Of a DNA stretch of 64,000 nucleotides, positions 1 to 14,032 are shown piece by piece. Under the pieces are notes generated by a model. It did not search any database and was not told the origin of the DNA. It was given only the letters and a program-made list of their open reading frames with translations. Position 1 is the stretch's first letter, and every line of letters starts with the position of its first letter. A program made the position numbers and the translations under genes. Origin of the DNA: a bacterium (lineage in GTDB: Bacteria > BMS3Abin14); contig CP070719.1 of assembly GCA_020350725.1 (NCBI GenBank), positions 2,474,997-2,538,996 of the forward strand, written 5' to 3'.

Positions 1-1808
1 CCGTCGCCGAAGGTCCACAGGAAGGTGTGGGTGTCGCCGGCGTCGGCGTCGGAGAAGGAGCCGGTGAAGCTCACCGAGCTGCCCTCGTCAATGGTCGTCT
101 GGTCCGCCTGCGGATCGGCCACGGGCAGTTCGTTCGCCACGGTGACGGTGAGGGTATCCGCGATGGAGGGATCCGAGTCGTCGTCGGTGACGGTCAGGGT
201 GACGGTGAAGATACCCTCTGTGGTGTAAGTGTGGGTCGGGTTCTGGCTGGTGGAGGTGGCGGTGCCGTCGCCGAAGTCCCACAGGAAGGTGTAGGGATCG
301 TCGGCGGGGCCGGCCGGATCGGTGAAGCTGGCGGCGAAGCTGGCGGCCACGTCCTTGGCGACCGTCGGGTCACCGAGCGCCTCCGCGGTGGGGGCCACGT
401 TGTTGACCGTGACGGTGAGGGTGTCGGAGCTCGCGGCGCCGTCATCATCGCTCACCGTCAGCTCCACGGTGTACGATCCGTTGTCCTCGTAGGTGTGGAT
501 TGGGCTGAGAGTCCCCTCCGTCGAGTTGCCGTCACCGAACTTCCATCTGAAGCTGAGCGTGTCGCTGCCCACATCGTTGCCGACTCCGGCAAAGCTCACC
601 GGTGACCCTTCATCGACCGGTGCGGCCGATCCCGCGTTGGCCGTGGGCGGTATGTTGTTGACGGTGACGGTGAGAGTACCGGTACCCTGGCCGCTGCCGC
701 TGTCGGTGACGGTGAAGGTCACGGTGTAGAGGCCGTCCGCGTCGTTGTCGGCGAAGATGTGGGTCGGGTTCCGGCTGGTGGAGGTGGGCGAGCTGTCGCC
801 GAAGTCCCACAGGAAGGTGTGGGTGTCGCCGACGTCAGGGTCGGAGAAGGAGCCGGTGAAGCTCGCAGAGCTCCCCTCGGCGATCGTCCCCTGGTTCACC
901 CTCGGGTCGGCGACCGGGTTCCTGTTGGCGACGGTCACCGTGCTGGCGTAGGCGCCGAAATCGCTGTCCTTGTCCGTGACCGTCAGGGTGACCCGGTAAT
1001 CGCCGAATGCCGTAAAGGTGTGGGTCGGGTTCTGGCTGGTGGAGGTGGCGCCGTCGCCGAAGTCCCACAGGAAGACGTAGGGTTCGTCGGCGGGGCCGGC
1101 CGGATCGGTGAAACTGCCGGCGAAGCTCGCTTCCTGATTACGGTAGGCCGGACCGGCCAACGATATGCCCACCGAGGGTGGCACGTTGTTGACCGTGACG
1201 ACGAGGGTGTCGGTGTCGGCCTCGCCCTCGTCGTCGGTGACGGTCAGGGTCACCGTGTAGAGGCCGCCCCCGTTGTTGTCCGCGTAGACGTGGATCGGGT
1301 TCCGGCTGGTGGAGGCGGGCGAGCTGTCTCCGAAGTCCCACAGGTATGAGTGGGTGTCCCCGGTTCCCGGGTCATCCTGGTCGCCGAGTAACGCCACCGC
1401 TTGCCCTTCGTCAACCTCCTGGTCGTCACCAGCTTTGGCCGTGGGCGCGACATTGGCAACCGTGACCGTGAGGCTGTCCGTACCGGAGCCGCCGTTGTTG
1501 TCGGTTGCCGTCAGCGTCACTGTGTACAGCCCGTTGTCCGGGAAGGAGTGCGACGGGGAGAGGGTCCCGGTCACCGAGGTGCCGTCGCCGAAATCCCACC
1601 TGTAGGTGTGGGTATCGTCGACATCCTCGTCGGTGACGCTGCCGAAGAAATCCACCGGCTCCCCTTCGTCGGCTGTCTGATTGCCCAGCACGAGGACCGT
1701 GGGGAGGTTGTTATTGGATTGGGGTCCACTCCCCCCCCCGCCGCCGCAGCCAACTGCGAACAGGATCAATAGGGGGATAAAGCAGATGAATAGTATAGGC
1801 CGTTTCAT
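1..1808 (-). CDS. PKD-repeat lipoprotein (partial, C-terminus outside window)
   Basis: An uninterrupted minus-strand frame runs from ATG at 1808 to the window edge, about 602 residues without a stop. The N-terminus is a short hydrophobic signal ending AVGC followed by a glycine run, so it is probably a lipoprotein with Cys near residue 21, though the lipobox is not ideal. At least seven PKD-type beta-sandwich repeats follow, each marked by W-D/K/T-F-G-D near residues 69, 156, 246, 333, 420, 509 and 598 (spacing about 87-90). Repeats share TSxNPTH and YTVTLTVTD strands. PKD domains typically mediate extracellular protein or polysaccharide contacts. A good ribosome site (AAGGAGGT) precedes the start. 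It lies downstream of polysaccharide genes on the same strand, so a surface or matrix role is inferred; no catalytic domain is visible in the part present. Confidence 0.85.
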   Translation of the reverse strand, partial: MKRPILFICFIPLLILFAVGCGGGGGSGPQSNNNLPTVLVLGNQTADEGEPVDFFGSVTDEDVDDTHTYRWDFGDGTSVTGTLSPSHSFPDNGLYTVTLTATDNNGGSGTDSLTVTVANVAPTAKAGDDQEVDEGQAVALLGDQDDPGTGDTHSYLWDFGDSSPASTSRNPIHVYADNNGGGLYTVTLTVTDDEGEADTDTLVVTVNNVPPSVGISLAGPAYRNQEASFAGSFTDPAGPADEPYVFLWDFGDGATSTSQNPTHTFTAFGDYRVTLTVTDKDSDFGAYASTVTVANRNPVADPRVNQGTIAEGSSASFTGSFSDPDVGDTHTFLWDFGDSSPTSTSRNPTHIFADNDADGLYTVTFTVTDSGSGQGTGTLTVTVNNIPPTANAGSAAPVDEGSPVSFAGVGNDVGSDTLSFRWKFGDGNSTEGTLSPIHTYEDNGSYTVELTVSDDDGAASSDTLTVTVNNVAPTAEALGDPTVAKDVAASFAASFTDPAGPADDPYTFLWDFGDGTATSTSQNPTHTYTTEGIFTVTLTVTDDDSDPSIADTLTVTVANELPVADPQADQTTIDEGSSVSFTGSFSDADAGDTHTFLWTFGD

Positions 1809-2460: not shown

Positions 2461-3483
2461 CTACCCGTCTATGATCACAGCGCCGCCGTCGTTGGCCAGG
2501 CTCCGGGAGGCCGCCTCGAGGATCTGGACGACGTGGTGGCCGTCCCTGCCGCTTGTGATCGGCTCCTCTCCCGAGGCGATGCTGTCGAGGAAATGCCGCG
2601 TCTCGACCTTCAGCGGCTCGGTCTGCTGAATATACGGAGCGTACATATCTCCGTAGTGGTAGGAGTAGGTGAACCCCGCGAAATCGTCGTAGTGCGGAGG
2701 GGCTTCTACGCGTTTATCGTAGATCTTGATCTTCTCCAGCGGCTCGGTGTCGTCGTAGACCAGCATTTTTTTGCTTCCCACGATGATCATCTCCCGGATC
2801 TTGTTGGGGTCCAGCCAGCTGGAGTGGATAGTGGCGAATCCGCCGTTGTCGAAGTTCAGGGTGAGATTCGTCACATCCTCGATGCCGGGATTGATGTGGG
2901 CCTTGCCCTGACAGTTCACGGAATACGGGGGCCTGCCGAAGAGGAAGAGGATAATGGAGATGTCGTGGGGGGCAAGATCCCAGGTGACGTTGATGTCCCT
3001 CTGGAAGAGGCCCAGGTTCAGGCGTCTGGAGCTGATGTAGTAGATCTCACCCAGTTCTCCCGAATCCACGATCTCCTTGATCCGTCTTACCGGCGCGGAA
3101 TAGATGAAGGTGTGTCCGACCATGAGGGTCAGCCGCCCCTGTTCGGCGATCTCCACCAGCTCCTTGCTGTGGACCGCCGATGACGTCATGGGTTTCTCCA
3201 CGAAGACGTGTTTGCCCGCCAGGAGGCATTTTTTCGCCAGGTCGTAATGCAGATCCACCGGCGTGGCCACCGTAACGGCCCCGATACCGTCGTCATTGAT
3301 GATGTCCATGTAATCGAGGGTGGTGTTGATCTCGGGGTAGAGGCCCTTCATGTGGTTGAGCCTCTCCTCGTTCAGGTCGCATACGGTCTTGACAACGCAG
3401 TCCGAGTGGGACCGGAAGTTCCTTATCAGATTAGGGCCCCAGTATCCGCAGCCCACCACGGCGATTTGCAACGGCTCATTCAT
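2461..3483 (-). CDS. Gfo/Idh/MocA-family sugar-nucleotide oxidoreductase
   Basis: A 340-residue NAD(P)-dependent oxidoreductase. The N-terminal Rossmann motif is VVGCGYWGPNLIRNF; the family lysine is in HVFVEKPMT, followed by the C-terminal alpha/beta domain with DLAPHDISI. I chose ATG at 3483, with AAAGGAG about seven bases upstream, over a TTG 21 bases further out. Paired with the downstream hexapeptide acetyltransferase, it probably oxidises a UDP-N-acetyl-glucuronate-type substrate at C3 (WbpB/WlbA-like) for an exopolysaccharide sugar. That substrate assignment rests on context only. Confidence 0.85.
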   Translation of the reverse strand: MNEPLQIAVVGCGYWGPNLIRNFRSHSDCVVKTVCDLNEERLNHMKGLYPEINTTLDYMDIINDDGIGAVTVATPVDLHYDLAKKCLLAGKHVFVEKPMTSSAVHSKELVEIAEQGRLTLMVGHTFIYSAPVRRIKEIVDSGELGEIYYISSRRLNLGLFQRDINVTWDLAPHDISIILFLFGRPPYSVNCQGKAHINPGIEDVTNLTLNFDNGGFATIHSSWLDPNKIREMIIVGSKKMLVYDDTEPLEKIKIYDKRVEAPPHYDDFAGFTYSYHYGDMYAPYIQQTEPLKVETRHFLDSIASGEEPITSGRDGHHVVQILEAASRSLANDGGAVIIDG

Positions 3484-3614: not shown

Positions 3615-4901
3615 TCAGAGGAAAATCTGCCGAACGAAGCTTCCCAGGGTGCGGGAAACCCTTGGGTTGGACCCGACGGGAGCACCTCTGGACAGCTCTT
3701 TTCTCCTGCAGCGGTAGGAGTCCGCGATCTGGCCGATGATGGCCGGCACGGTCTTTGCGAATATCAGGAGGTCCATAGAGGGTGATCCCCGTCGGGAATA
3801 GCGGATGTCCAGCCTCATCATCTGTTTGAAGGTGGTTCTGTTCTTGCCGGATACCTGCCACAGCCCTGTCATGCCGGGGAGGGTGTGAAATCGCTGGTTC
3901 TGCCACAGTTGAAATTCCTCCGCCTCGTAGCGAAGACACGGTCTGGGACCAACGAGGCTCATGTCACCGAGGAGGACGTTTATCAGTTGGGGGAGTTCGT
4001 CGATGCACGTCTTCCTCATCAGGCCGGCCAGGGGGATCAGCCGGTCGTCCCTGTTGTGATCCAGTTTGACCATCTCCTCATCGCTGGAGATCAGGCTCTT
4101 CAGGTACTCCTCGTGCACGTGTGTATCGGCATTCGTCCGCATGGTCCGGAATTTCCACATGGTGAAGGGGCGTCCGAGGTAGCCGATCCGCTCCTGGCGG
4201 AAGAACACGGGCCCCGGTGAGACGATCTTGATGTAGGCGGAGATGACCAGGAAGACGGGGGAGAGGATGACCAGCCCGATGAGGGAACCGATGATGTCCA
4301 GGGTCCTCTTCCATATCGGGAGCCTTGTTCCCATGAGCATTTCCTTGAGTTCGTCGCCCCCACACTGGCGGTGGTTTATGTAGGTCTTCAGTTCGCTGTG
4401 GAACTGGGCGTCGGAGTGTTCCTCCGGCGGAGAGGACCGGTCGGCCCCCGACGGCCGATCGCCGTCGCCGCCTCTCGGCTCTTGCGCTCTCCCGTTGCCG
4501 CTGATCCCTGCGGGCAGGGGCGAGGGATAGGTGTACGACCGGCAGTGGTTGTCCTGGCATACCTCCTCGCAGATCTCCGAACAGATATCCCTGATAAAGG
4601 CCTGAGCTCCGTCACCGGAGGTCTCGGGGAGGAAGACCCCTATGTGGCGCTCATCGAACCATCCCAGTTCGTCCGTCATCCTCATTCGCTGAATGATGTA
4701 CCGGACGAAATGGTTCATGTGGCGCTTTTTGCCGGCGTGCTCCGTGTCGATGAGGACCAGGGAGAACTCGTGGCCGTTCCGGTCGCATCGGGCGCATTCG
4801 TGTTTGAGGATAGCCCGGAACTCCTCCGCGGACAGGAGGGTCGAAACGGTCCGCTTCCGAGAGCCGTTGAAGATGGATTTTATGAACGTGATGGGCTTCA
4901 T
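3615..4901 (-). CDS. Initiating sugar transferase with degenerate GGDEF-like N-terminal domain
   Basis: A 428-residue protein in two parts. The C-terminal half (about residues 190-400) is a bacterial sugar transferase: membrane anchor TLDIIGSLIGLVILSPVFL, then GPVFFRQERIG, MWKFRTM, DELPQLINVLLGDMSLVGPRP and PGMTGLWQVSGKN. It should transfer a sugar-1-phosphate to undecaprenyl phosphate and start exopolysaccharide repeat synthesis. The usual N-terminal membrane bundle and CoA-binding-like domain are missing. In their place about 100 soluble residues resemble a GGDEF fold, with the signature replaced by WFDER, followed by a low-complexity linker. Start is ATG 4901; a TTG six bases upstream is possible. 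The gene sits behind a sigma54-type promoter at 4991-5007. Confidence 0.9.
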   Translation of the reverse strand: MKPITFIKSIFNGSRKRTVSTLLSAEEFRAILKHECARCDRNGHEFSLVLIDTEHAGKKRHMNHFVRYIIQRMRMTDELGWFDERHIGVFLPETSGDGAQAFIRDICSEICEEVCQDNHCRSYTYPSPLPAGISGNGRAQEPRGGDGDRPSGADRSSPPEEHSDAQFHSELKTYINHRQCGGDELKEMLMGTRLPIWKRTLDIIGSLIGLVILSPVFLVISAYIKIVSPGPVFFRQERIGYLGRPFTMWKFRTMRTNADTHVHEEYLKSLISSDEEMVKLDHNRDDRLIPLAGLMRKTCIDELPQLINVLLGDMSLVGPRPCLRYEAEEFQLWQNQRFHTLPGMTGLWQVSGKNRTTFKQMMRLDIRYSRRGSPSMDLLIFAKTVPAIIGQIADSYRCRRKELSRGAPVGSNPRVSRTLGSFVRQIFL

Positions 4902-4990
4902 GGGCAATGAGTTCTCACAGGTTTCGATCGTTCCGCCGAATTTTTCTGCTCCCCAGGTGCTTTATATGAGAAGGTTCCTTCACTCTGTCA

Positions 4991-5007
4991 TATCAAAATC
5001 TGTGCCA
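4991..5007 (-). promoter_or_regulatory. Sigma54 promoter (-24/-12) of sugar transferase unit
   Basis: Read on the minus strand the bases are TGGCAC-AGATT-TTGATA, against the consensus TGGCAC-N5-TTGCW: full -24 element, correct spacing, one mismatch in the -12. Predicted transcription start is near 4982, about 80 bases before ATG 4901. Confidence 0.75.
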
Positions 5008-5092
5008 GAAAGAAATTTTGTTTAATTACAGTATGTTATGGCTTAACTGCAGTTTCTGCCACCGCAACAGTGGAAATGGTTTTCACAATACA

Positions 5093-5108
5093 GGGAAAAA
5101 CTTTTCCC
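5093..5108. promoter_or_regulatory. Palindromic candidate activator site GGGAAAA-N2-TTTTCCC
   Basis: A perfect 7-base inverted repeat around AC, centred about 95 bases upstream of the -24 element of the sugar transferase promoter. The identical arms recur at 12017-12032 upstream of the other sigma54 promoter. A weaker related sequence lies at about 5070-5086. Probably an upstream activator (enhancer) site. Confidence 0.65.
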
Positions 5109-5257: not shown

Positions 5258-5815
5258 TTAAATCGTCGTAACTAAATGAGTCTCGACTTCAACCTTTGCC
5301 TGATAGAGGAGTTCCATCAGGACCAATACACGGCTCTGAGCCGTGTCAGTTCTCAAGATGGTTCCGATCAGATCTTTCATGGGCCCTTCCCGGAACCGGA
5401 CCCTGTCGCCGGGCCTGAATTCGGGCGTCTGGTCCAGGAAGCCGTCCTCGTCCACCCTGTTCATGAAGAACTCGATGACGGAATCCTCCACTGCGGGCGG
5501 GTCGTTGTTGCCGAACTGAACGAGATGGCTGACTCCCTTGGCCCATTTCACCGAATAATACTGGTCCGGAAACGTGAAACGGGCGAACAGGTAGCCGGGG
5601 AAATAGGGCACCGTCTCGTGTCGGCGCCTCCGCCAGCGGAACTCCCTGGTCAGGGGACAGAAGACCGGGATCCCCCGGTGTACCAGGTCCTCCCGGCAGC
5701 GCAGCTCCTCCCTGGGTTTGGTCCGGACCACGTACCATTTCGGTTCCAGGGCGTCGGTCAGGGACGGGAGGCCGTCCCTGTCCCATCCGTTCGCGGTCTT
5801 TACCTGAGTGTCCAT
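5258..5815 (-). CDS. NusG-like specialised antiterminator (RfaH/UpxY type)
   Basis: A 185-residue NusG-family protein. The NGN domain (about residues 28-125) shows WYVVRTKPREELRC, PVFCPLTREFRWRRRR, PYFPGYLFARF and VKGVSHLVQFG-like sequence. A KOW domain follows with FRPGDRVRFREGPMKDLIGTI near residues 145-165. Such paralogues load onto RNA polymerase at specific leader signals and suppress termination in long polysaccharide operons. I start at ATG 5815, 7 bases after the kinase gene; the longer frame upstream is not NusG-like. It is the last gene of the operon that begins with the sigma54 activator at 11579, so it may act on that operon's long leader or on the sugar transferase unit. Confidence 0.88.
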   Translation of the reverse strand: MDTQVKTANGWDRDGLPSLTDALEPKWYVVRTKPREELRCREDLVHRGIPVFCPLTREFRWRRRRHETVPYFPGYLFARFTFPDQYYSVKWAKGVSHLVQFGNNDPPAVEDSVIEFFMNRVDEDGFLDQTPEFRPGDRVRFREGPMKDLIGTILRTDTAQSRVLVLMELLYQAKVEVETHLVTTI

Positions 5816-5822
5816 CGTCTCT

Positions 5823-6644
5823 CTATCCCTTGCTCGACTTTCCGTAGTAGCCGTAGGACCCGTATCCCTGTCCAGGCGGCGTCTCAACGCCGTTGAGAAC
5901 GATACCGATGATGGGCGTGTCGCCCAGGGCCTCCACAGTCTGGTCCAACTGGTCCGGGCCGTCTTTTCCGGCGCCGAGGACGACGAGGACACCGTCACAG
6001 TGCTTGGCCAGAATGCCGGGTTCGGGCATGGGGAAGACCGGGGGGGCGTCGATGATGATGTACCGGAACTGCTTCCTCAGTTTGGCCAGCAGTTTTTCCA
6101 GCTCCTTGCCCTTCAGGCGGTCGATGAACTCGTCGCTGAATTCTCCCGACGGCAGATAGATCAGATCGAAGAGAAGCGTGTTCAGGAGAACGCTGCCCAC
6201 CGGCTCCCTCATGGCGAGCACGTCCGAAAAACCCTTGAGGTCCTGTACGCCCAGATCGAGGTACCTTCTGCTCATGGCGCGCCGGCTGTCGATATCGATG
6301 AAGAGGGTCTTGTTCCCGTAGGCCCTTGCGAAGGAAAGGGCCAGGTTGAGGGCACAGGTGGTCTTGCCGCTGCCAAGGGTCGCCCCGGTAACGAGGACGA
6401 TGCGGCCCTGGTCCCCCTTGACGGATGTGTCGAAGTGATGCTCGATCTTCGTCTTGAGAAAACGGAAATACTCGCTCTCGATCGAGCGGGGCTTGTGGAA
6501 GGCGACCAGCCGCTCGTGGATCTTCCGGTCCTCCGGCTCCTTGATGTAGGCCTGCCTCCCCGAGAGGTCCACGGAGTCGACGGAGATGAGGCCGTTCAGC
6601 TTCATGGTCTCGGTAACGGCTTTTGCCAGATCCTTGTCACTCAT
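5823..6644 (-). CDS. Exopolysaccharide tyrosine autokinase (CpsD/BY-kinase type)
   Basis: A 273-residue P-loop kinase of the CpsD/CapB type found in exosortase-associated polysaccharide loci. Visible motifs: Walker A ATLGSGKTTCALNLA near residue 90, Walker A' FIDIDSRR (usual DADLRRP changed), Walker B YIIIDAPPVFP, and a C-terminal tyrosine cluster GYGSYGYYG that would be autophosphorylated. Family knowledge: it works with the Wzz-like membrane partner to control chain length and export. The partner gene lies immediately upstream and overlaps by 4 bases (ATGA). Confidence 0.92.
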   Translation of the reverse strand: MSDKDLAKAVTETMKLNGLISVDSVDLSGRQAYIKEPEDRKIHERLVAFHKPRSIESEYFRFLKTKIEHHFDTSVKGDQGRIVLVTGATLGSGKTTCALNLALSFARAYGNKTLFIDIDSRRAMSRRYLDLGVQDLKGFSDVLAMREPVGSVLLNTLLFDLIYLPSGEFSDEFIDRLKGKELEKLLAKLRKQFRYIIIDAPPVFPMPEPGILAKHCDGVLVVLGAGKDGPDQLDQTVEALGDTPIIGIVLNGVETPPGQGYGSYGYYGKSSKG

Positions 6645-8278
6645 GATACGGCTCCTCTCACGTTATCCCTGATCGCCGCGGCGATCTCACCGATATCCTT
6701 GACGAAGATGTCAAACAGAAGGAGGAAGACCACCAGGACCGCCACCCCCACGCCGATACTGACCAGCATGTGTTTTTTCCGGACCTGCCGCTCAGCCCTC
6801 GAGGCTATGAGGGGAATGGCCATCACGATGGGGTAATCCACCCTCGGTTCCAGCTGCTTCAGGCTGTAGAAGGCGGGAAAGACCGATTCCAGCAGGGTCG
6901 CCAGCCCGATACCGAAGCCCAGTCCCACCACGAGCCCCAGGGCGATGATCATCAGCCGATTGGGCCGATAGGGCTTTTCCGGAAGGTTGGCCGGGTCCAT
7001 GATGCGGAATTTCTCTCCCTTGCGGCGTTTTTCCAGGTTCTCCGAGAGCTGAGCCTCCATCTTCTTGTTCAGGAGGTCCTCGTAGTTCTTCTTGGTGTTC
7101 TCGTAATCCCTCGTCAGGGTGAGCAATTCCTGCTCTCGCTTGGGAGCCTCTTCCACCCGGGCCTGGTATTCCCTGATCCTGTCCCGGAGAGTCCTCTCCT
7201 CCTGGCGAAGGGCGGCCAGACGGGGTCTGTTTTCGTTCAGCTGCCGTCTCAGGTTGGTCAGTTCCCTGGTCAACTCCGGGGCGGCCGCTCCCGGTGCAAT
7301 GGAGACTGTCGAGCCGGGTCGGGAACCCAGGCTCTTCTGGACGTTCTGGATCTTCTTCTCGACGTTGTCGAGCTCCCTGCGGGCCGCGATCACATCGGGG
7401 TGTTTCGACGTGTAGGTCGATTCGAGGCGGACCACCTCCTGCCGAAGGGCGACCCTCCTCTCCAGGAGATCGTTCAGGGAGGTGTTGACGGGCTCGGCCT
7501 CGTCGTCCCCCGAGGCCGCCGGGATCTGGATCTGACCCTCCAGTCGCGTCACCTCCTGCTCCAGGAGGAGGACTCTGTTTTCCACTTCGCGCTGGGCCTC
7601 CAGGTTCGATTTCATCTGGATGTTGAGATTGTCCAGCATGCGAAGGTTGGCATCGAGCTGGTCGGGAAGCTGTCCCATGAACTCCTGCTTGAACTGCTGG
7701 ATGGAGTACTCCTGCTCCTCCAGGACGATCTTGAGCTGCGCAGCCTGCTCCTCGATGAACAGGGTCGTTCCTTCGGCCTGCTCTTCGCGGACCAGGAGGT
7801 TCTCCTCGATGAAGTGTTCTATCAGGCGAGACACCGCCAGCATGGCCTTGGTGGGATCCCGATGGGTGTAGTGGACCATGAAGAAGCTGCTGTCCCGCTG
7901 GTTCGGAACCTCGACCTCGAGGTCCTCCCTCATCGTCGCGACGAGCACCTCTGTGGGCAGATCCTTCGCCTGGGCCTCCGGATAGAGATCGAGTTCATCG
8001 ATTATCTGGAGGATCTTGGTCCGGCTGGTCAGCTGCTGCCGGATGGTCCTGAGACGGGCTGCGATATCGGTGGTGACGGTCGACTTCACGTATTCCTCGG
8101 GGACTTTGGGCGGCTCGATGAATATGGAGGCGGTGCTCCGGTACAGGTTGGGCAGGTACAGACCGTATATGGTCAAGGTCATGCTGATGGCGAGGAAGGG
8201 GACGAGGATGACCCATCTCCTCCTCCAGGCGAGTTGGAGGAAGTTTCTCAGTTCACTGCCGCCGAGTTCGTGTTTCAT
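6641..8278 (-). CDS. Polysaccharide chain-length determinant (Wzz/GNVR, PEP-CTERM-locus type)
   Basis: A 545-residue inner-membrane polysaccharide co-polymerase. One transmembrane helix near residues 22-42 precedes the Wzz domain, a long periplasmic coiled coil (about 150-410) and a proline-rich exit RIMDPANLPEKPYRPNR before a second helix near 440-460. A third hydrophobic stretch near 505-525 follows a cytosolic segment. The large coiled coil is typical of the chain-length proteins of exosortase-type EPS loci. It overlaps the downstream tyrosine kinase by 4 bases, which fits the known pairing of the two proteins, and follows the barrel gene after 10 bases. Confidence 0.93.
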   Translation of the reverse strand: MKHELGGSELRNFLQLAWRRRWVILVPFLAISMTLTIYGLYLPNLYRSTASIFIEPPKVPEEYVKSTVTTDIAARLRTIRQQLTSRTKILQIIDELDLYPEAQAKDLPTEVLVATMREDLEVEVPNQRDSSFFMVHYTHRDPTKAMLAVSRLIEHFIEENLLVREEQAEGTTLFIEEQAAQLKIVLEEQEYSIQQFKQEFMGQLPDQLDANLRMLDNLNIQMKSNLEAQREVENRVLLLEQEVTRLEGQIQIPAASGDDEAEPVNTSLNDLLERRVALRQEVVRLESTYTSKHPDVIAARRELDNVEKKIQNVQKSLGSRPGSTVSIAPGAAAPELTRELTNLRRQLNENRPRLAALRQEERTLRDRIREYQARVEEAPKREQELLTLTRDYENTKKNYEDLLNKKMEAQLSENLEKRRKGEKFRIMDPANLPEKPYRPNRLMIIALGLVVGLGFGIGLATLLESVFPAFYSLKQLEPRVDYPIVMAIPLIASRAERQVRKKHMLVSIGVGVAVLVVFLLLFDIFVKDIGEIAAAIRDNVRGAVS

Positions 8279-8288
8279 AGAGCCCTTC

Positions 8289-9566
8289 CTAAAAAAGTGA
8301 CACGAAGGTGAGTTCGAGGCTGTTCTCCTTCAGGTCCTCGAGGTCATCATTGCTGTCGATCTTCTCCCTATTGGCCGTCAGGGCCAGGTCGGAGTCCTCG
8401 GAGGTCCGCCAGGACAGTCCCAGTGTGGTCACCAGCCTGTTGTCCTGGCGGTCGAAGCCGAACTGGCTGGGGTCGAAGTCGTCCTTGGACGCTATGGCGT
8501 TGACGGTCGCCGTCAGGGTGCTGGTCGTGCGCCATACCAGGGTCGCCTCTGCCAGGCTTCGCCTGCTCCATACCGGGGTCCTGTCGGCCCTCTGGCCAAG
8601 GGTGTTCTCCTGCGCCGCCGACAGAGCCAGGGACGTCCTGTTCGACACCTGGCTCTTGAAGGTGAGACGGCCCCTCTCGCTCCAGTCACGCTCGCTCCCC
8701 TTTTCTTTGAGGCCTTCCGTGCCGAGGCTCACCACCAGGGTCGTCTGGGGGCTGGGATAATTCTCCACGAACAGGATCAGGCCGAGATTGTCGAACTCCA
8801 CGTCCTCATCCAGCGGATTGCCCGGGTTCGTCTCTGACGCGTACAGAAATGTCTCCCCGCCGTAGAGGAATTTTTTGGCCGAGCTTATCTGGATGACGGC
8901 GCTGTACCTGTTCTCTCTCCACCTGTCGTCCGATTCCTTCCCTTCCCCGACGAGGGCGGAGGCGGCGACCTGGATGCTCTTGCCCAGGCCGGCGGGGATG
9001 TCGAGGTTCCCGCCCAGGGAGGCCGTGTTGGTGGTTTCAGTGTCCCGCTTGATCTCCTCGGTCCAGAGGTAGGTGTCGAAGGACCTCAGGGGATAGGTTT
9101 CCCTGCCGATAAAGGTCAGGCTCAGCCGCGATCTGTCCTCCAGGGTCCTGCTTCGGTCGAGGTTGTCTACCTCCTGGAGGTTGGTCTGCCGGGACGCGGT
9201 CGCCTGGAGGCCGAGGGTCGTGAACCCCGACACGGGCCAGATGAGATCGGCGTCCACCTGGTAGATGTTGTTGGTCGACGTCTCCGTTCCCTCCACCCGC
9301 TCCCAGCCCCCCACTCCGCGGAGGGCGTAGTTGTTCTGGCCCGCCTGATGGTCCACCTCGATGCCCGCTTCGAGGGAGAACAGGTTGCCGTCGACCTCTC
9401 TGCCCTCGCGCTGCCTCTCGATGTTGTCACTGTACAGGGCCCTCGTTTCCAGGACCCAGTTCCACTCGGCGGCCCGGGCCCGGTCCGCGAGGCCTCCGGA
9501 CAGCAGCAGGAGGACCCACACCAGGACCGGGAGGCGAACGTATCTCTCCAGATGCCTGCCCCTCAT
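8289..9566 (-). CDS. Outer-membrane beta-barrel protein of the EPS export locus
   Basis: A 425-residue exported protein. The signal peptide has a hydrophobic core VLVWVLLLLSGGLA and a cleavage site near ARAAEW. The rest is alternating amphipathic strands (YALRGVGGWERV, LGLQATASRQTNL, RLSLTFIGRETY and others) and ends in phenylalanine (LELTFVSLF), as expected for a barrel inserted by BamA. It matches the uncharacterised barrel regularly found in PEP-CTERM/exosortase polysaccharide loci. Start is ATG 9566, overlapping the export gene by 4 bases; the much longer upstream frame is an out-of-frame reading of that gene. Probably the outer-membrane conduit or assembly partner for the polymer. Confidence 0.85.
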   Translation of the reverse strand: MRGRHLERYVRLPVLVWVLLLLSGGLADRARAAEWNWVLETRALYSDNIERQREGREVDGNLFSLEAGIEVDHQAGQNNYALRGVGGWERVEGTETSTNNIYQVDADLIWPVSGFTTLGLQATASRQTNLQEVDNLDRSRTLEDRSRLSLTFIGRETYPLRSFDTYLWTEEIKRDTETTNTASLGGNLDIPAGLGKSIQVAASALVGEGKESDDRWRENRYSAVIQISSAKKFLYGGETFLYASETNPGNPLDEDVEFDNLGLILFVENYPSPQTTLVVSLGTEGLKEKGSERDWSERGRLTFKSQVSNRTSLALSAAQENTLGQRADRTPVWSRRSLAEATLVWRTTSTLTATVNAIASKDDFDPSQFGFDRQDNRLVTTLGLSWRTSEDSDLALTANREKIDSNDDLEDLKENSLELTFVSLF

Positions 9567-10159
9567 GGCACCACCACGGTGTCGCCCCTCTGGAGGAGGA
9601 GGTTGTTGCCGCCTTCCGGGTCCTTCAGGATCTCCCCGTAGTTGACCCGGTACCGGACCTGCTTGCCGCCCTCGAACCGGATGACGCCTATCTTGCTGGG
9701 CTGGGCGAAGGTGGAGAAGCCGCCGGCGAGGGACAGGGCCTGGATCACCGTCATCCTGCCCAGCAGGGGGTAGGTGCCCGGTTGGGACACCTCGCCCATG
9801 ACGTAGATCTTGTTGGAGGCCGCCTCCTGCAGGATCACGGTGATGAAGGGGTCCTCGATGAACAGCTCCAGTTTGTCCTTGATCTGGGTGGCGATCTCCT
9901 CGGTGGTCAGGCCCAGGGCGACGACGTCCCCGATCAGGGGGAGGGTTGTCTTTCCGTCGGGACGCACGACGTACTCTCCGGAAAGGTCCTCGTTCTTCCA
10001 CACGACGATCCGGAGGACGTCCCCGCCTCCGACGAGATAGGCACCGCTGGCCGGGCCGGCCTCCATCGGGCCAGGAGATTCCGTCGCGTCGTCGGCCAGG
10101 GCGGCCACGGTAACAGCCAGGATTAATGCCACCAGAAAGGACACGGATTTTTTACGCAT
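9563..10159 (-). CDS. Polysaccharide export protein (Wza/SLBB family, short periplasmic form)
   Basis: A 198-residue protein with signal peptide ([22 protein letters not shown]), then a Poly_export domain (GDVLRIVVWKNEDLSGEYVV, GKTTLPLIGDVVALGLTTEEI) and one SLBB domain (IYVMGEVSQPGTYPLLG, LSLAGGF). It lacks a lipobox cysteine and the C-terminal outer-membrane helix of Wza, so it is a short periplasmic type; the neighbouring beta-barrel may supply the outer-membrane pore. It overlaps the upstream activator gene by 8 bases and the barrel gene by 4, implying translational coupling. Confidence 0.93.
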   Translation of the reverse strand: MRKKSVSFLVALILAVTVAALADDATESPGPMEAGPASGAYLVGGGDVLRIVVWKNEDLSGEYVVRPDGKTTLPLIGDVVALGLTTEEIATQIKDKLELFIEDPFITVILQEAASNKIYVMGEVSQPGTYPLLGRMTVIQALSLAGGFSTFAQPSKIGVIRFEGGKQVRYRVNYGEILKDPEGGNNLLLQRGDTVVVP

Positions 10160-11579
10160 TGTCGATCCCCATTTCCTTGATCTTGGACAGCAGGGTTTTA
10201 TAGCTGACGTCCAGGAGGGACGCGGCCTTCTTCCTGTTCCAGCGCGTCATCCTCAAGGCCTGTTCGATGGCCTGGCGCTCGGCTTCCAGGGTCGCCTGCT
10301 TGGCGATGGACTTCAGGCTCATTCCCCGGTCCACCAGGTGCTCCTCGTGGACCTGGGTAGACGGCCGGGAACCGTGGCCGTCCGAGTCCGCCGGCAGGGC
10401 CTCCTGCGGCTGATCGGGGATGTCCTTCAATTCCTCGAGGATGACCCTCTGGTCGCCCAGCACGGTGGCCCTGCGGATGACGTTCTCCAGTTCCCGGATG
10501 TTCCCCGGCCAGGAGTGGTAGAAAAGCAGGGAGATGGTGTCCTCGGACAGCTCGATGACCGGGACCTGATACTGGTCCGCGAACCTGTGGCGGAAATAGT
10601 CCGACAGGACATGGATCTGGTCCTTCCTGCTCCTCAGGGGCGGGAGGTGGAGATTGACCACATTGAGCCTGAAGTAGAGGTCCTTCCGGAAGGTCCCAAG
10701 GTGGACGGCCTGGTCGAGCAGCCTGTTGGTGGCGGCTATGATCCTGGCGTTCGTTCGCCCGTCGGTGGTGGAACCCAGGGGCGAGAACTTGCCGTCCTGC
10801 AGGACGTGGAGGAGTTTCGACTGGAGGGAGTAGGGGAGCTCGCTCACTTCGTCGAGGAAGAGGTACCCCCCGTTGGCCGTTTCGAACCGGCCCGGCTTCC
10901 TCCGGTAGGCACCCGTGAAGGCCCCCTTTTCGAAGCCGAAGAGCTCGCTCTCCAGAAGCTCCGACGGGATGGCCGCGCAGTTGACCTTAACGAAGGGGCG
11001 GTCGCTTCGGGGCGAGATCTGCCAGAGGAACTTGGCGATGACCTCCTTGCCCGTTCCGCTCTCCCCCGTGATGAGGATGGGGATGTCGGTGTCCTTGATC
11101 TTGTGGATGGCCCGTTTGATATCCAGCATTCCGCTGGACTGGCCGAACAGGACTTCCTCGGGGATGACCGACTTCTGGTGCTTCTCGCGGGAGAGGAAGG
11201 ATGCTTCCGCACTGTCGTGATGGAAATTGATGACCCGCTGCACTTTCTCCACCAGGCTGGAGCGGCTCACGGGGAAGTGGATCATCTCCGAGACGCCCGT
11301 CGGCATGGACGTGGTCTCCCATCCGGTTCTGCTCTCCTCGAACAGGAGGATTATGGGGACGTGGGGCAGAACACCCCTGATCTCCGCGACCATCTTTCCT
11401 GGTTCGTCCCTGTCGGAATCAGTCAGGTAGAGGAGGAGAAGATCCCAGATGTTGACCAGAAGCGACGCCAGGAGCCTTTCCTTGCTGGAGCAGGACAGGA
11501 TCTCATCGGAGATGTCCCTGGAGATCCAGTGCAGGATCTCCGAGGGAAGAGAGACCTGTCCACCGATAAGAATTTTCAT
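10152..11579 (-). CDS. Sigma54-dependent activator with degenerate receiver domain
   Basis: A 475-residue NtrC-class enhancer-binding protein. Residues 1-130 look like a receiver, but the phosphoacceptor aspartate is replaced (DLLLLYLTD; Tyr51 at the Asp position) and the acidic pocket is absent. The AAA+ domain has Walker A GESGTGKE, the sigma54-contact loop GAFTGA, Walker [13 protein letters not shown] and the arginine-finger region [10 protein letters not shown] Fis-type helix-turn-helix ([20 protein letters not shown]) ends the protein. Start is ATG 11579, preceded by GAAGGGA; the frame extends further up without domain content. It is the first gene of the EPS operon behind a sigma54 promoter, so it probably both activates and is produced by the same system. 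Its activity is unlikely to be set by phosphorylation. Confidence 0.92.
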
Positions 11580-11872
11580 GCCATTCCCTTCTTGCTGTCT
11601 CGACGGGACAATAACCCTCTCCTCGAGGTGAGCGGCCCCTGTGTGCCTGACGGTTGACGATCCATGGATCCCCGGCGCCGGGTTCATCGGCGCCGTCCTA
11701 TGCCGGGTGTCCTCCGCCCGGCTGGGCTGGGGGCGGAACCGGGCGGCGCGTTGAATAACCGGGTGCAATCTCCGTCAGAAAAGTCCTGCGCGCGCCGCCC
11801 GTCCGGCCGGGATGTCATCGGGGCCTATCGGCCATGGACGATGAAAACGGGGCACAATTTCCGGACAGGGGA

Positions 11873-11887
11873 GCAACATCTGTGCCA
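11873..11887 (-). promoter_or_regulatory. Sigma54 promoter (-24/-12) of the EPS operon
   Basis: Minus strand reads TGGCAC-AGATG-TTGC, a full match to the sigma54 consensus with correct 5-base spacing. The first ten bases (TGGCACAGAT) are identical to those of the promoter at 4991-5007. Expected start of transcription is near 11862. Confidence 0.9.
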
Positions 11888-12016
11888 TGCGGTAGGAAGA
11901 AGGCCGAACGGTGGGAAAAGACTGTAATAGAAAGGAAATAGGGGTGTTTCTTGTGGCAGAGATATACTTATGTTAAGAGAAATTTTTCCTGATTTTGCCA
12001 GATCACACGGCGGAAA

Positions 12017-12032
12017 GGGAAAATGTTTTCCC
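12017..12032. promoter_or_regulatory. Palindromic candidate activator site GGGAAAA-N2-TTTTCCC
   Basis: A perfect 7-base inverted repeat around TG, centred about 140 bases upstream of the EPS-operon -24 element. A degenerate second copy overlaps the end of the neighbouring regulator gene at 12038-12053. The same arms occur at 5093-5108. Probable binding site of one of the two adjacent sigma54 activators. Confidence 0.65.
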
Positions 12033-12045
12033 AAATAGGGAAAAA

Positions 12046-13569
12046 TTATTCCACAACTTCCTGCTCCGGGAGTGGTTTTTCCAGGCCGCCCTCCCTCATC
12101 TTGTAAAGGAGGGCCTTATAGCTGATCTTGAGAAGCTTGGCCGCCTTGCTCTTGTTCCACCTGGTTATCTCAAGGGCCCGGAGGATGGCCTCTTTCTCGG
12201 CGGCCTGGGCCGCTTCCTTGGCGATCTCCTTGAGGGAGTAGTTCTCCCGCTGCATTCCCTCCTCATCGAGGGCGACTCCTTTGGCCGTCTCCCGGGTTGG
12301 GCCGGCCTGGTCCGGTCCCGACTCGCCGCCCGCGGCGGCCCGGCCGGGGATCTGTCCTTCCTGCAGGTCCGGGCTTCCGGCCCCCATTGGCGGTGCGGAA
12401 ACGGGACTTTCCTTGTCGAATTCCAGCAGGCCGAGGACGACGTAACGCCGCATGACGTTCTGAAGTTCCCGAACGTTTCCGGGCCAGCTGTGGCGGTTGA
12501 GCCGGGGCAGTGCGCTCTCGCTCAGGTCAACCTCTTTTCGGTATTTCCTCGAGTAGAAATCGAGATAGTAGTTGGCCAGCAGGGCGATGTCCACAGGCCG
12601 CTCTCTCAGTGGAGGGATGTGGATGCGGACGACGTTGAGCCGGTAGTAGAGGTCGGAACGGAAGGATCCGCTTTTGACCTCCTCCTCCAGGTCCTGGTTG
12701 GTGGCGACGAGGATGCGCGTGTTCGTGCGGATGGTCTTGTTGCTGCCCAGTCGGTTGAAGAAGCCGTCCTGGAGAACGTGGAGGAATTTCGCCTGGAGGG
12801 CGGGGGCGATCTCCCCGATCTCATCGAGGAACAGGGTCCCGTTGTCCGCGTTCTCGAACTTGGACGGTTTGGCCTGGGATGCGCCGGTGAAGGCACCCTT
12901 GTTGTATCCGAAAAGCTCGCTCTCGAGGAGGGAAGCAGGCAGGGCGGCGCAATTGACCTTGAGGAAGGGGCCCGAGGCCCGGAGCGACTTCTGATGGATC
13001 TCCCTGGCGATGACCTCCTTCCCCACTCCGCTCTCGCCGGTTATGAGGACCGGTACGTCGGTCTGGGCTACCTTTGACACCATCTCGATGATATTGGCCA
13101 TCTCTCGGCTGGCGTACAGGGCGGAGTGCGTCTCGGCGAAGGCCTCCTGTTTGCGGAGGCGGTCGAGCTCCTCGGCCATCTGCTTCTGGGAGAGGGCTTT
13201 GTTGACGGCGATCATCAGCTCCGCCACGTCGAAGGGCTTGTGGATGTAATCCAGGGCTCCCATCTGGAGGGCCTCGACGACGGTCTCAACGTCACCCCTT
13301 GCCGAGATGACGATCGCTTTCAAGTGGGGATATCTGTTGCGGAGGAGCTGGAGAAAATCAAGTCCGCTCATCTCCGGCAGCATGAGATCGAGAAGGATCA
13401 GGTCGGGAAGGCTGCCCCTTTCCAGGAGGGCCAGGGCTTCCGTGCAGTCACCGCACGTCATGACGTGATAGTCTTCGTCGGAGAAGGCGTGATAGATGAG
13501 GTCCCTGATATCGGGCTCGTCGTCGATGGCGAGAAGTGTGTGTTGACGGGAGATCTTATCCGCTGCCAT
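12046..13569 (-). CDS. NtrC-family response regulator, sigma54-dependent (PrsR-like)
   Basis: A 507-residue three-domain regulator. The receiver (about 10-125) has acidic pocket DDEPD, phosphoacceptor Asp61 in LLDLMLPEMSG, and the conserved Lys in YIHKPFD. The AAA+ domain follows with GESGVGKE, GAFTGA, LFLDEIGE and FRSDLYYRLNVV. A proline/glycine-rich linker (about 400-450) precedes the Fis-type helix-turn-helix TRWNKSKAAKLLKISYKALL. Its C-terminal third is closely related to that of the neighbouring activator (both have S-L-K-x-I-A-K before the HTH), suggesting a duplication. No cognate kinase lies in the window. Architecture matches the response regulators of PEP-CTERM/EPS systems. It is the best candidate to bind the nearby GGGAAAA-N2-TTTTCCC palindromes. 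Confidence 0.93.
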   Translation of the reverse strand: MAADKISRQHTLLAIDDEPDIRDLIYHAFSDEDYHVMTCGDCTEALALLERGSLPDLILLDLMLPEMSGLDFLQLLRNRYPHLKAIVISARGDVETVVEALQMGALDYIHKPFDVAELMIAVNKALSQKQMAEELDRLRKQEAFAETHSALYASREMANIIEMVSKVAQTDVPVLITGESGVGKEVIAREIHQKSLRASGPFLKVNCAALPASLLESELFGYNKGAFTGASQAKPSKFENADNGTLFLDEIGEIAPALQAKFLHVLQDGFFNRLGSNKTIRTNTRILVATNQDLEEEVKSGSFRSDLYYRLNVVRIHIPPLRERPVDIALLANYYLDFYSRKYRKEVDLSESALPRLNRHSWPGNVRELQNVMRRYVVLGLLEFDKESPVSAPPMGAGSPDLQEGQIPGRAAAGGESGPDQAGPTRETAKGVALDEEGMQRENYSLKEIAKEAAQAAEKEAILRALEITRWNKSKAAKLLKISYKALLYKMREGGLEKPLPEQEVVE

Positions 13570-14032
13570 TTGGCCTGCTTCGTATTCCGGTCCCTCGGAT
13601 CCTGGGCAATGTTCGATTTATTTCGCCAGTGTGGCCCTTTTCCCCTGTGCGCTGCGATCGATAGCAGTTTTTATAGCACATATTTTACCGGAATTGAGAA
13701 AAATTTTTCCCAACTTGGCAAAATTTCCTCTATCATTGCAGGAAAAGACGCGGGCTGAAACGGAGGAACAGGCCAACGGAAAGGGGGAGGATGTGGCAAA
13801 AAAAGCGGGGGCAGGGCCCCTCTGGAACCGCCGGGGGATGCCGACCCACCCACCGCCCACATCGGACCCTTCAAAATATCCGTGCCGTGGCGGCTCGGAG
13901 ATGGTCGGCGGTTGACTTTTCTGCGGTTGAATCCGGCCCCCTAATGTGATATGGGTGCGCCCGACACGTGGACGGAAATTTTCCATCTCTTTTTCCGGGA
14001 GACGGGAGTCTCCCCGGCCGGGGAAATCCCTG
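13570..14032. other. Gene-free divergent region between response regulator and DUF2065 gene
   Basis: 463 bases between divergent genes. I see no supported gene: open frames here lack ribosome sites and normal composition. It contains an imperfect copy of the palindrome at 13696-13711 and several A/T-rich GGAAATTTTCC-like stretches (for example near 13975-13985). Confidence 0.5.
13696..13711. promoter_or_regulatory. Imperfect copy of GGGAAAA-N2-TTTTCCC palindrome
   Basis: Reads GAGAAAA-AT-TTTTCCC, one mismatch from the two perfect copies. It lies 127 bases upstream of the response regulator start, so autoregulation is possible. No clear -24/-12 element accompanies it. Confidence 0.45.

Follow-up and report, generated by a model that had tools for sequence, protein, structure and literature searches.

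A putative sigma54-dependent switch for EPS genes with tandem palindromes and two paralogous activators

The window, by which we mean the whole 64,000-nucleotide stretch of bacterial DNA that was analysed, carries an EPS gene cluster on the minus strand next to the gene for an NtrC-type response regulator, here called RR (507 amino acids; 12046..13569, minus strand; Pfam, alignment). Downstream of a promoter that we designate P1 are six tightly packed minus-strand genes. The first of these codes for a second sigma54 activator, Act2 (475 amino acids; 10152..11579; Pfam, alignments and a receiver profile match). It is followed by genes for a Wza-like polysaccharide export protein (9563..10159; TIGR03027, 144 bits against a cut-off of 180), a putative outer-membrane protein (8289..9566, predicted start at 9566), a Wzz-like chain-length determinant (6641..8278; TIGR03007, 286 bits against a cut-off of 279), a tyrosine autokinase-like ATPase (5823..6644; TIGR03018 and TIGR01007, sub-cut-off), and a NusG/RfaH-type antiterminator-like protein (5258..5818; PF02357, with RfaH and UpxY models sub-cut-off). 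Thus, the Wzz-like assignment exceeds its curated cut-off whereas several others in the cluster fall below theirs. No Pfam match was obtained for positions 8289-9500 of the outer-membrane protein candidate, which has an equivalently placed counterpart in relatives.

A second promoter, P2, faces the gene for an undecaprenyl-phosphate sugar transferase (3615..4907, with a likely ATG near 4901, minus strand; TIGR03025, 243 bits, below the cut-off of 296), and this gene is followed by one for a GFO/IDH/MocA oxidoreductase (2461..3480, minus strand; Pfam), an order that is the same in relatives. Between the units led by P1 and P2 lies the NusG/RfaH-type gene, which has an equivalently placed counterpart in relatives; this suggests antitermination on the long EPS operon. 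Downstream of the cluster, window positions 1-1800 are occupied by a large minus-strand gene that, as judged by eye, has PKD-like module repeats and a lipoprotein-like start.

P1 (TGGCACAGATGTTGCT; 11872..11887, minus strand) matches the sigma54 consensus TGGCACRNNNNTTGCW with 0 mismatches, as the preliminary description of this DNA had claimed. Exact matches to this consensus occur once in the window (P1) and twice in the genome. The sequence carries the -24 GG and -12 GC elements with 10 bp between them and an upstream enhancer, and the genome encodes rpoN. Transcription is predicted to start near 11862. The proximal enhancer copy is a perfect palindrome (GGGAAAATGTTTTCCC; 12017..12032) that is conserved in relatives, and the distal copy (GGGAAAAATTATTCCA; 12038..12053) lies 21 bp from it and has 2 mismatches. 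Both sites had been reported earlier, the second as a degenerate copy, and both were confirmed at the same positions. The -24/-12 element and the proximal palindrome are 145 bp apart from start to start, leaving a gap of 129 bp between them, and the distal copy overlaps the stop codon of the RR gene (12046-12048). A search of the window against Rfam for leader RNAs returned no match.

The earlier list of sites was accurate for P1 but lacked the P2 promoter and its palindrome, a site upstream of RR, and the 21-22 bp spacing of the tandem copies. P2 (TGGCACAGATTTTGAT; 4992..5007, minus strand) has 1 mismatch to the consensus, and a similar promoter precedes the same gene in relatives. Its enhancer includes a distal perfect palindrome (GGGAAAAACTTTTCCC; 5093..5108, an exact match) and a proximal degenerate copy (5071..5086) that is 22 bp from the distal one. 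The -12 element of P2 ends in GA or GT rather than GC in all four genomes examined (window 4992-5007; L044 near 14431; L046 12059; L048 near 1772), whereas that of P1 always ends in GC. Perhaps P2 is a conserved but weaker promoter.

The operator upstream of RR (13696..13711) has 1 mismatch and adjoins a sigma70-like extended -10 element on the minus strand; tandem sites are equivalently placed in two relatives. As assessed by eye, the palindromes end 13-17 bp before extended -10-like elements in the analysed genome, which we call G000, and in relatives G003 and G005 (TGTGCTATAA, TGTGTTAGCA and TGTGCTAGTA, respectively). These are the only three of six genomes in which the RR-upstream sites are convincing. 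The site overlaps this sigma70-like promoter and adjoins its -35 region, a position from which a bound activator could block the promoter, and the arrangement suggests that RR might be autoregulated.

Five genomes of the same family, with RR at 51-67% identity, were used for comparison. Each has a sigma54 promoter in the gap between RR and Act2, at the place equivalent to P1, and the export genes follow Act2 in the same order in those relatives whose contigs are long enough. In every one of the five, the same gap also contains paired GGGWAAA-NN-TTTWCCC sites with a spacing of 19-23 bp. These are weak in G004 and strong in the other four, and in G005 the enhancer is 328 bp from its promoter. 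The proposal that a sigma54 promoter with upstream enhancers precedes an export operon beginning with a sigma54 activator gene is therefore supported, and the layout is kept in all five relatives. The P2 arrangement recurs in G003 and G004 and less clearly in G002, with weak tandem scores at P2 of G002 and at P1 of G004. When eight regions from the relatives were summed, GGGWAAA ranked first of 140 half-site permutations, and the runners-up were near-identical to it. Elsewhere in these genomes, 1-mismatch sites lie mostly inside ORFs and are without a tandem partner. RR, Act2 and the operators form one inherited block in six genomes. Across the family, genomes with RR and/or Act2 contain 20 motif matches versus 9 for the control, whereas genomes that lack these genes contain 6 versus 9 in total.

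The statistics for the whole genome (2.78 Mb) are based on pattern searches. The window contains 9 motif matches at ≤3 mismatches versus 3.2 +/- 2.0 in shuffles, and at ≤1 mismatch the genome contains 7 sites versus 1 for the reversed control pattern. Only two perfect copies of the palindrome exist in the genome, and these are located at P1 and P2. The preliminary description had proposed a genome-wide search for the motif near sigma54 promoters, and this test gave a positive result. At ≤2 mismatches the motif alone is unspecific (60 matches versus 54 for the control), and it was rejected as a genome-wide predictor. Its association with sigma54 promoters, in contrast, is specific: 6 of the 46 sigma54-like sites with ≤1 mismatch have GGGWAAANNTTTWCCC (≤2 mismatches) 30-250 bp upstream, versus about 0.2 expected, and 1 has it downstream. 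The binomial p value of about 1e-7 assumes a uniform background, and intergenic DNA is AT-richer. When half-sites were permuted (on 38 of the promoters), the mean number of motif-bearing promoters was 0.3, and 1 of 139 permutations reached six; this permutation is probably a near-identical one.

Besides P1 and P2, the motif-bearing promoters are those of an SGNH-esterase operon, a GAF-GGDEF-HD gene and a small unknown gene, and one upstream of tRNA-Cys. The SGNH-hydrolase, SxtJ-like and carbamoyltransferase genes (L053 9410-13105), which likely serve EPS decoration, are preceded by a sigma54 promoter that has a tandem motif pair at 21 bp spacing. No orthologues of the SGNH-esterase gene were found in the relatives at 1e-20. 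The gene for the GAF-GGDEF-HD protein (L175 2416-4668) has a sigma54-like promoter with a single weak motif copy only 46 bp upstream, and a link to c-di-GMP is possible. Just upstream of tRNA-Cys (L050 2022-2337; G000:C1:692021-692336), a sigma54-like promoter is accompanied by three copies of the motif, spaced by multiples of 21 bp. This tRNA gene also has a sigma70-like promoter, and the sigma54 site and motif array are not conserved in the three relatives compared. A further tandem pair, 21 bp apart (L054 2406; G000:C1:1231405), has no recognisable, correctly placed sigma54 promoter nearby.

RR has the features of an NtrC-type (group I) activator. Matches to PF00072, PF00158 and PF02954 are all above cut-offs, corresponding to a receiver with its acceptor Asp, an AAA+ domain with a GAFTGA loop, and a Fis-type HTH. 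In the alignment its receiver is intact, with the Asp pair in IDDE, the acceptor Asp in LLDLMLP and the Lys in KPF. Act2 has the same two domains for sigma54 activation, with the GAFTGA loop kept, but not a phosphorylatable receiver. A Pfam search of Act2 gave no PF00072 match, although its N-terminus is receiver-like (profile match to the RR receiver, 98.4%). Alignments indicate that the acidic pair and the Lys are lost, and that the acceptor Asp is lost in G000 and G004. The recognition helices are SYKALLYK in RR and SYKTLLSK in Act2.

The two proteins are found in the same genomes, and in a tree of 83 relatives RR, Act2 and two acidobacterial proteins form one set at 96%. Among the 80 named relatives of Act2 that were listed, only L087 had any of five tested EPS proteins (a sugar transferase), and so no named organism there carries the unit. 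Sigma54 activators number about two dozen in this genome, and thus the link between the operator and RR or Act2 rests on neighbourhood, co-occurrence and conservation.

Given the promoters, tandem sites, conservation, association with sigma54 promoters and domain integrity that can be read from the sequence, the best explanation, to which we assign a probability of about 0.7, is a sigma54-dependent EPS switch operated by two paralogous activators through tandem-palindrome enhancers. A kinase would phosphorylate RR, which would then bind the GGGWAAA-NN-TTTWCCC palindromes, placed two helical turns apart, and via looping would open sigma54 polymerase at P1 and P2. Expression from P1 would yield Act2, the Wza-like protein, the outer-membrane protein, the Wzz-like protein, the kinase and the NusG-like protein, whereas P2 would yield the sugar transferase and the oxidoreductase. 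The receiver of Act2 is dead, so phosphorylation by that route is probably unneeded. Because the recognition helix of Act2 closely matches that of RR, Act2 would probably act from the same enhancers, amplifying the output or locking it. An activator at the RR-upstream copy probably limits the synthesis of RR in an NtrC-like manner. We infer the identity of the binding protein, the phosphorylation, the feedback and the autoregulation from these sequence features.

The feedback part of this proposal requires that Act2 bind its own enhancer, and the near-identical recognition helix makes positive feedback plausible. If RR alone binds and Act2 recognises other sites, the circuit would be a one-way feed-forward cascade, since RR lies outside the P1 operon, and such a cascade would fit the sequence as well as feedback does. 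We regard RR-only binding as a serious possibility, albeit not the favoured one. The P1 enhancer touches the stop codon of RR, which itself has similar sites upstream, the two recognition helices are not identical (A/T and Y/S(T)), and branch lengths indicate that Act2 has evolved faster than RR. In addition, the syp promoters of Vibrio fischeri answer SypG and not its relative LuxO, even though, upstream of qrr1, the sites used by the two overlap (PMC10162802). However, the HTH and GAFTGA loop are intact in Act2, whose own promoter showed no other class of motif, and sharing of a motif by paralogous activators is on record for DVU0110 and DVUA0057 (PMC4641369). A more elaborate form of the favoured switch is speculative and, in our judgement, somewhat doubtful: the signal-dependent regulator would start P1, the constitutive pseudo-receiver paralogue would act on the same enhancers to sustain EPS export after the signal has passed, and the operator before the regulator gene would shut off the first stage, making a self-locking two-stage switch.

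It is improbable that another of the sigma54 activators binds the palindromes while RR and Act2 act elsewhere. The number of such proteins in the genome favours this reading, as does the fact that most target operons of G000 outside the EPS locus lie far from RR and Act2, but the inheritance of RR, Act2 and the operators as one block argues against it, as does a motif excess that is confined to genomes with RR and/or Act2. More improbable still is that the P1 palindromes are the intrinsic terminator of the RR gene rather than an operator. A hairpin is present on the minus strand (12044-12026), where a 7-bp stem (TTTTCCC-TATTT-GGGAAAA) is followed by CATTTTCCC and was called terminator-like. 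However, a clean run of T residues is missing from its tail, and the arms form no consistent stem in relatives. Moreover, each copy is itself palindromic, the repeats are spaced by two turns, and the same paired motif lies upstream of P2 and RR, away from gene ends, and at other sigma54 promoters. We rejected the terminator reading because the hairpin does not fit these other sites. A chance occurrence of a good sigma54 match near an AT-rich palindrome could appeal to the 2-mismatch motif being no commoner genome-wide than its control, but the association with sigma54 promoters and the conservation across five diverged relatives leave this prospect negligible.

Several known systems resemble the favoured switch. 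In the NtrC system (glnA/ntrBC), tandem palindromes serve as enhancers for sigma54 promoters and mediate repression where they cover a sigma70 promoter; here, repression is proposed solely on the basis of where the RR-upstream site lies. The syp locus of V. fischeri comprises 18 polysaccharide genes under the control of sigma54 and the phosphorylatable NtrC-type activator SypG (PMC10162802). Polysaccharide genes would likewise be under sigma54 and an NtrC-type activator here, both systems include a related activator pair, and several sigma54 promoters in one cluster with a common operator are found here as P1 and P2 in G000 and as their counterparts in G003 and G004. However, the SypG operator is TTCTCANNNTGMDWN, whereas the operators described here have a different consensus. 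In addition, the second activator here has a degenerate receiver and is encoded by the first gene of the operon, and the species are not closely related.

In the PrsK/PrsR PEP-CTERM system, a motif that is sometimes repeated lies upstream of the sigma54 site (PMC1569441). An NtrC-type response regulator near EPS genes is a shared trait, and the TTTACA end of the PrsR motif resembles GTAAA/TTTAC variants in the relatives studied here, but the targets here are EPS genes rather than PEP-CTERM genes. RR was rejected as a PrsR, scoring 371 bits against the curated TIGR02915 cut-off of 502.6. Other genes, at G004:C123 and G002:C52, pass this cut-off (598-599 bits) in genomes with no detectable exosortase. 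An XrtA/PEP-CTERM exosortase system was likewise rejected, as none of 12 family genomes has an exosortase (PF09721), although the Wzz-like protein passes TIGR03007. No PrsK gene was recognised among the ORFs examined.

Desulfovibrio vulgaris has two sigma54 response regulators, DVUA0057 and DVU0110, with a predicted common motif for EPS and biofilm operons (PMC3333781, PMC4641369). Unlike RR and Act2, these are encoded apart, one on a plasmid and the other on the chromosome, and each of the two is listed as a response regulator. No report of either one controlling the other was found in the literature. Likewise, among titles and abstracts retrieved with the half-site, no paper was evidently on the operator described here. 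With its operator, two promoters and two candidate activators, the locus offers a testable regulon for surface polysaccharide in a poorly known lineage. Should Act2 prove to share the enhancers, the locus would be a compact example of an EPS switch in which a duplicated activator has become an amplifier or a memory element, and the division of labour between activator duplicates would become a testable question. The design itself is of the kind already known from Syp/SypG, PrsR and DVUA0057/DVU0110, of which this locus is a new example.
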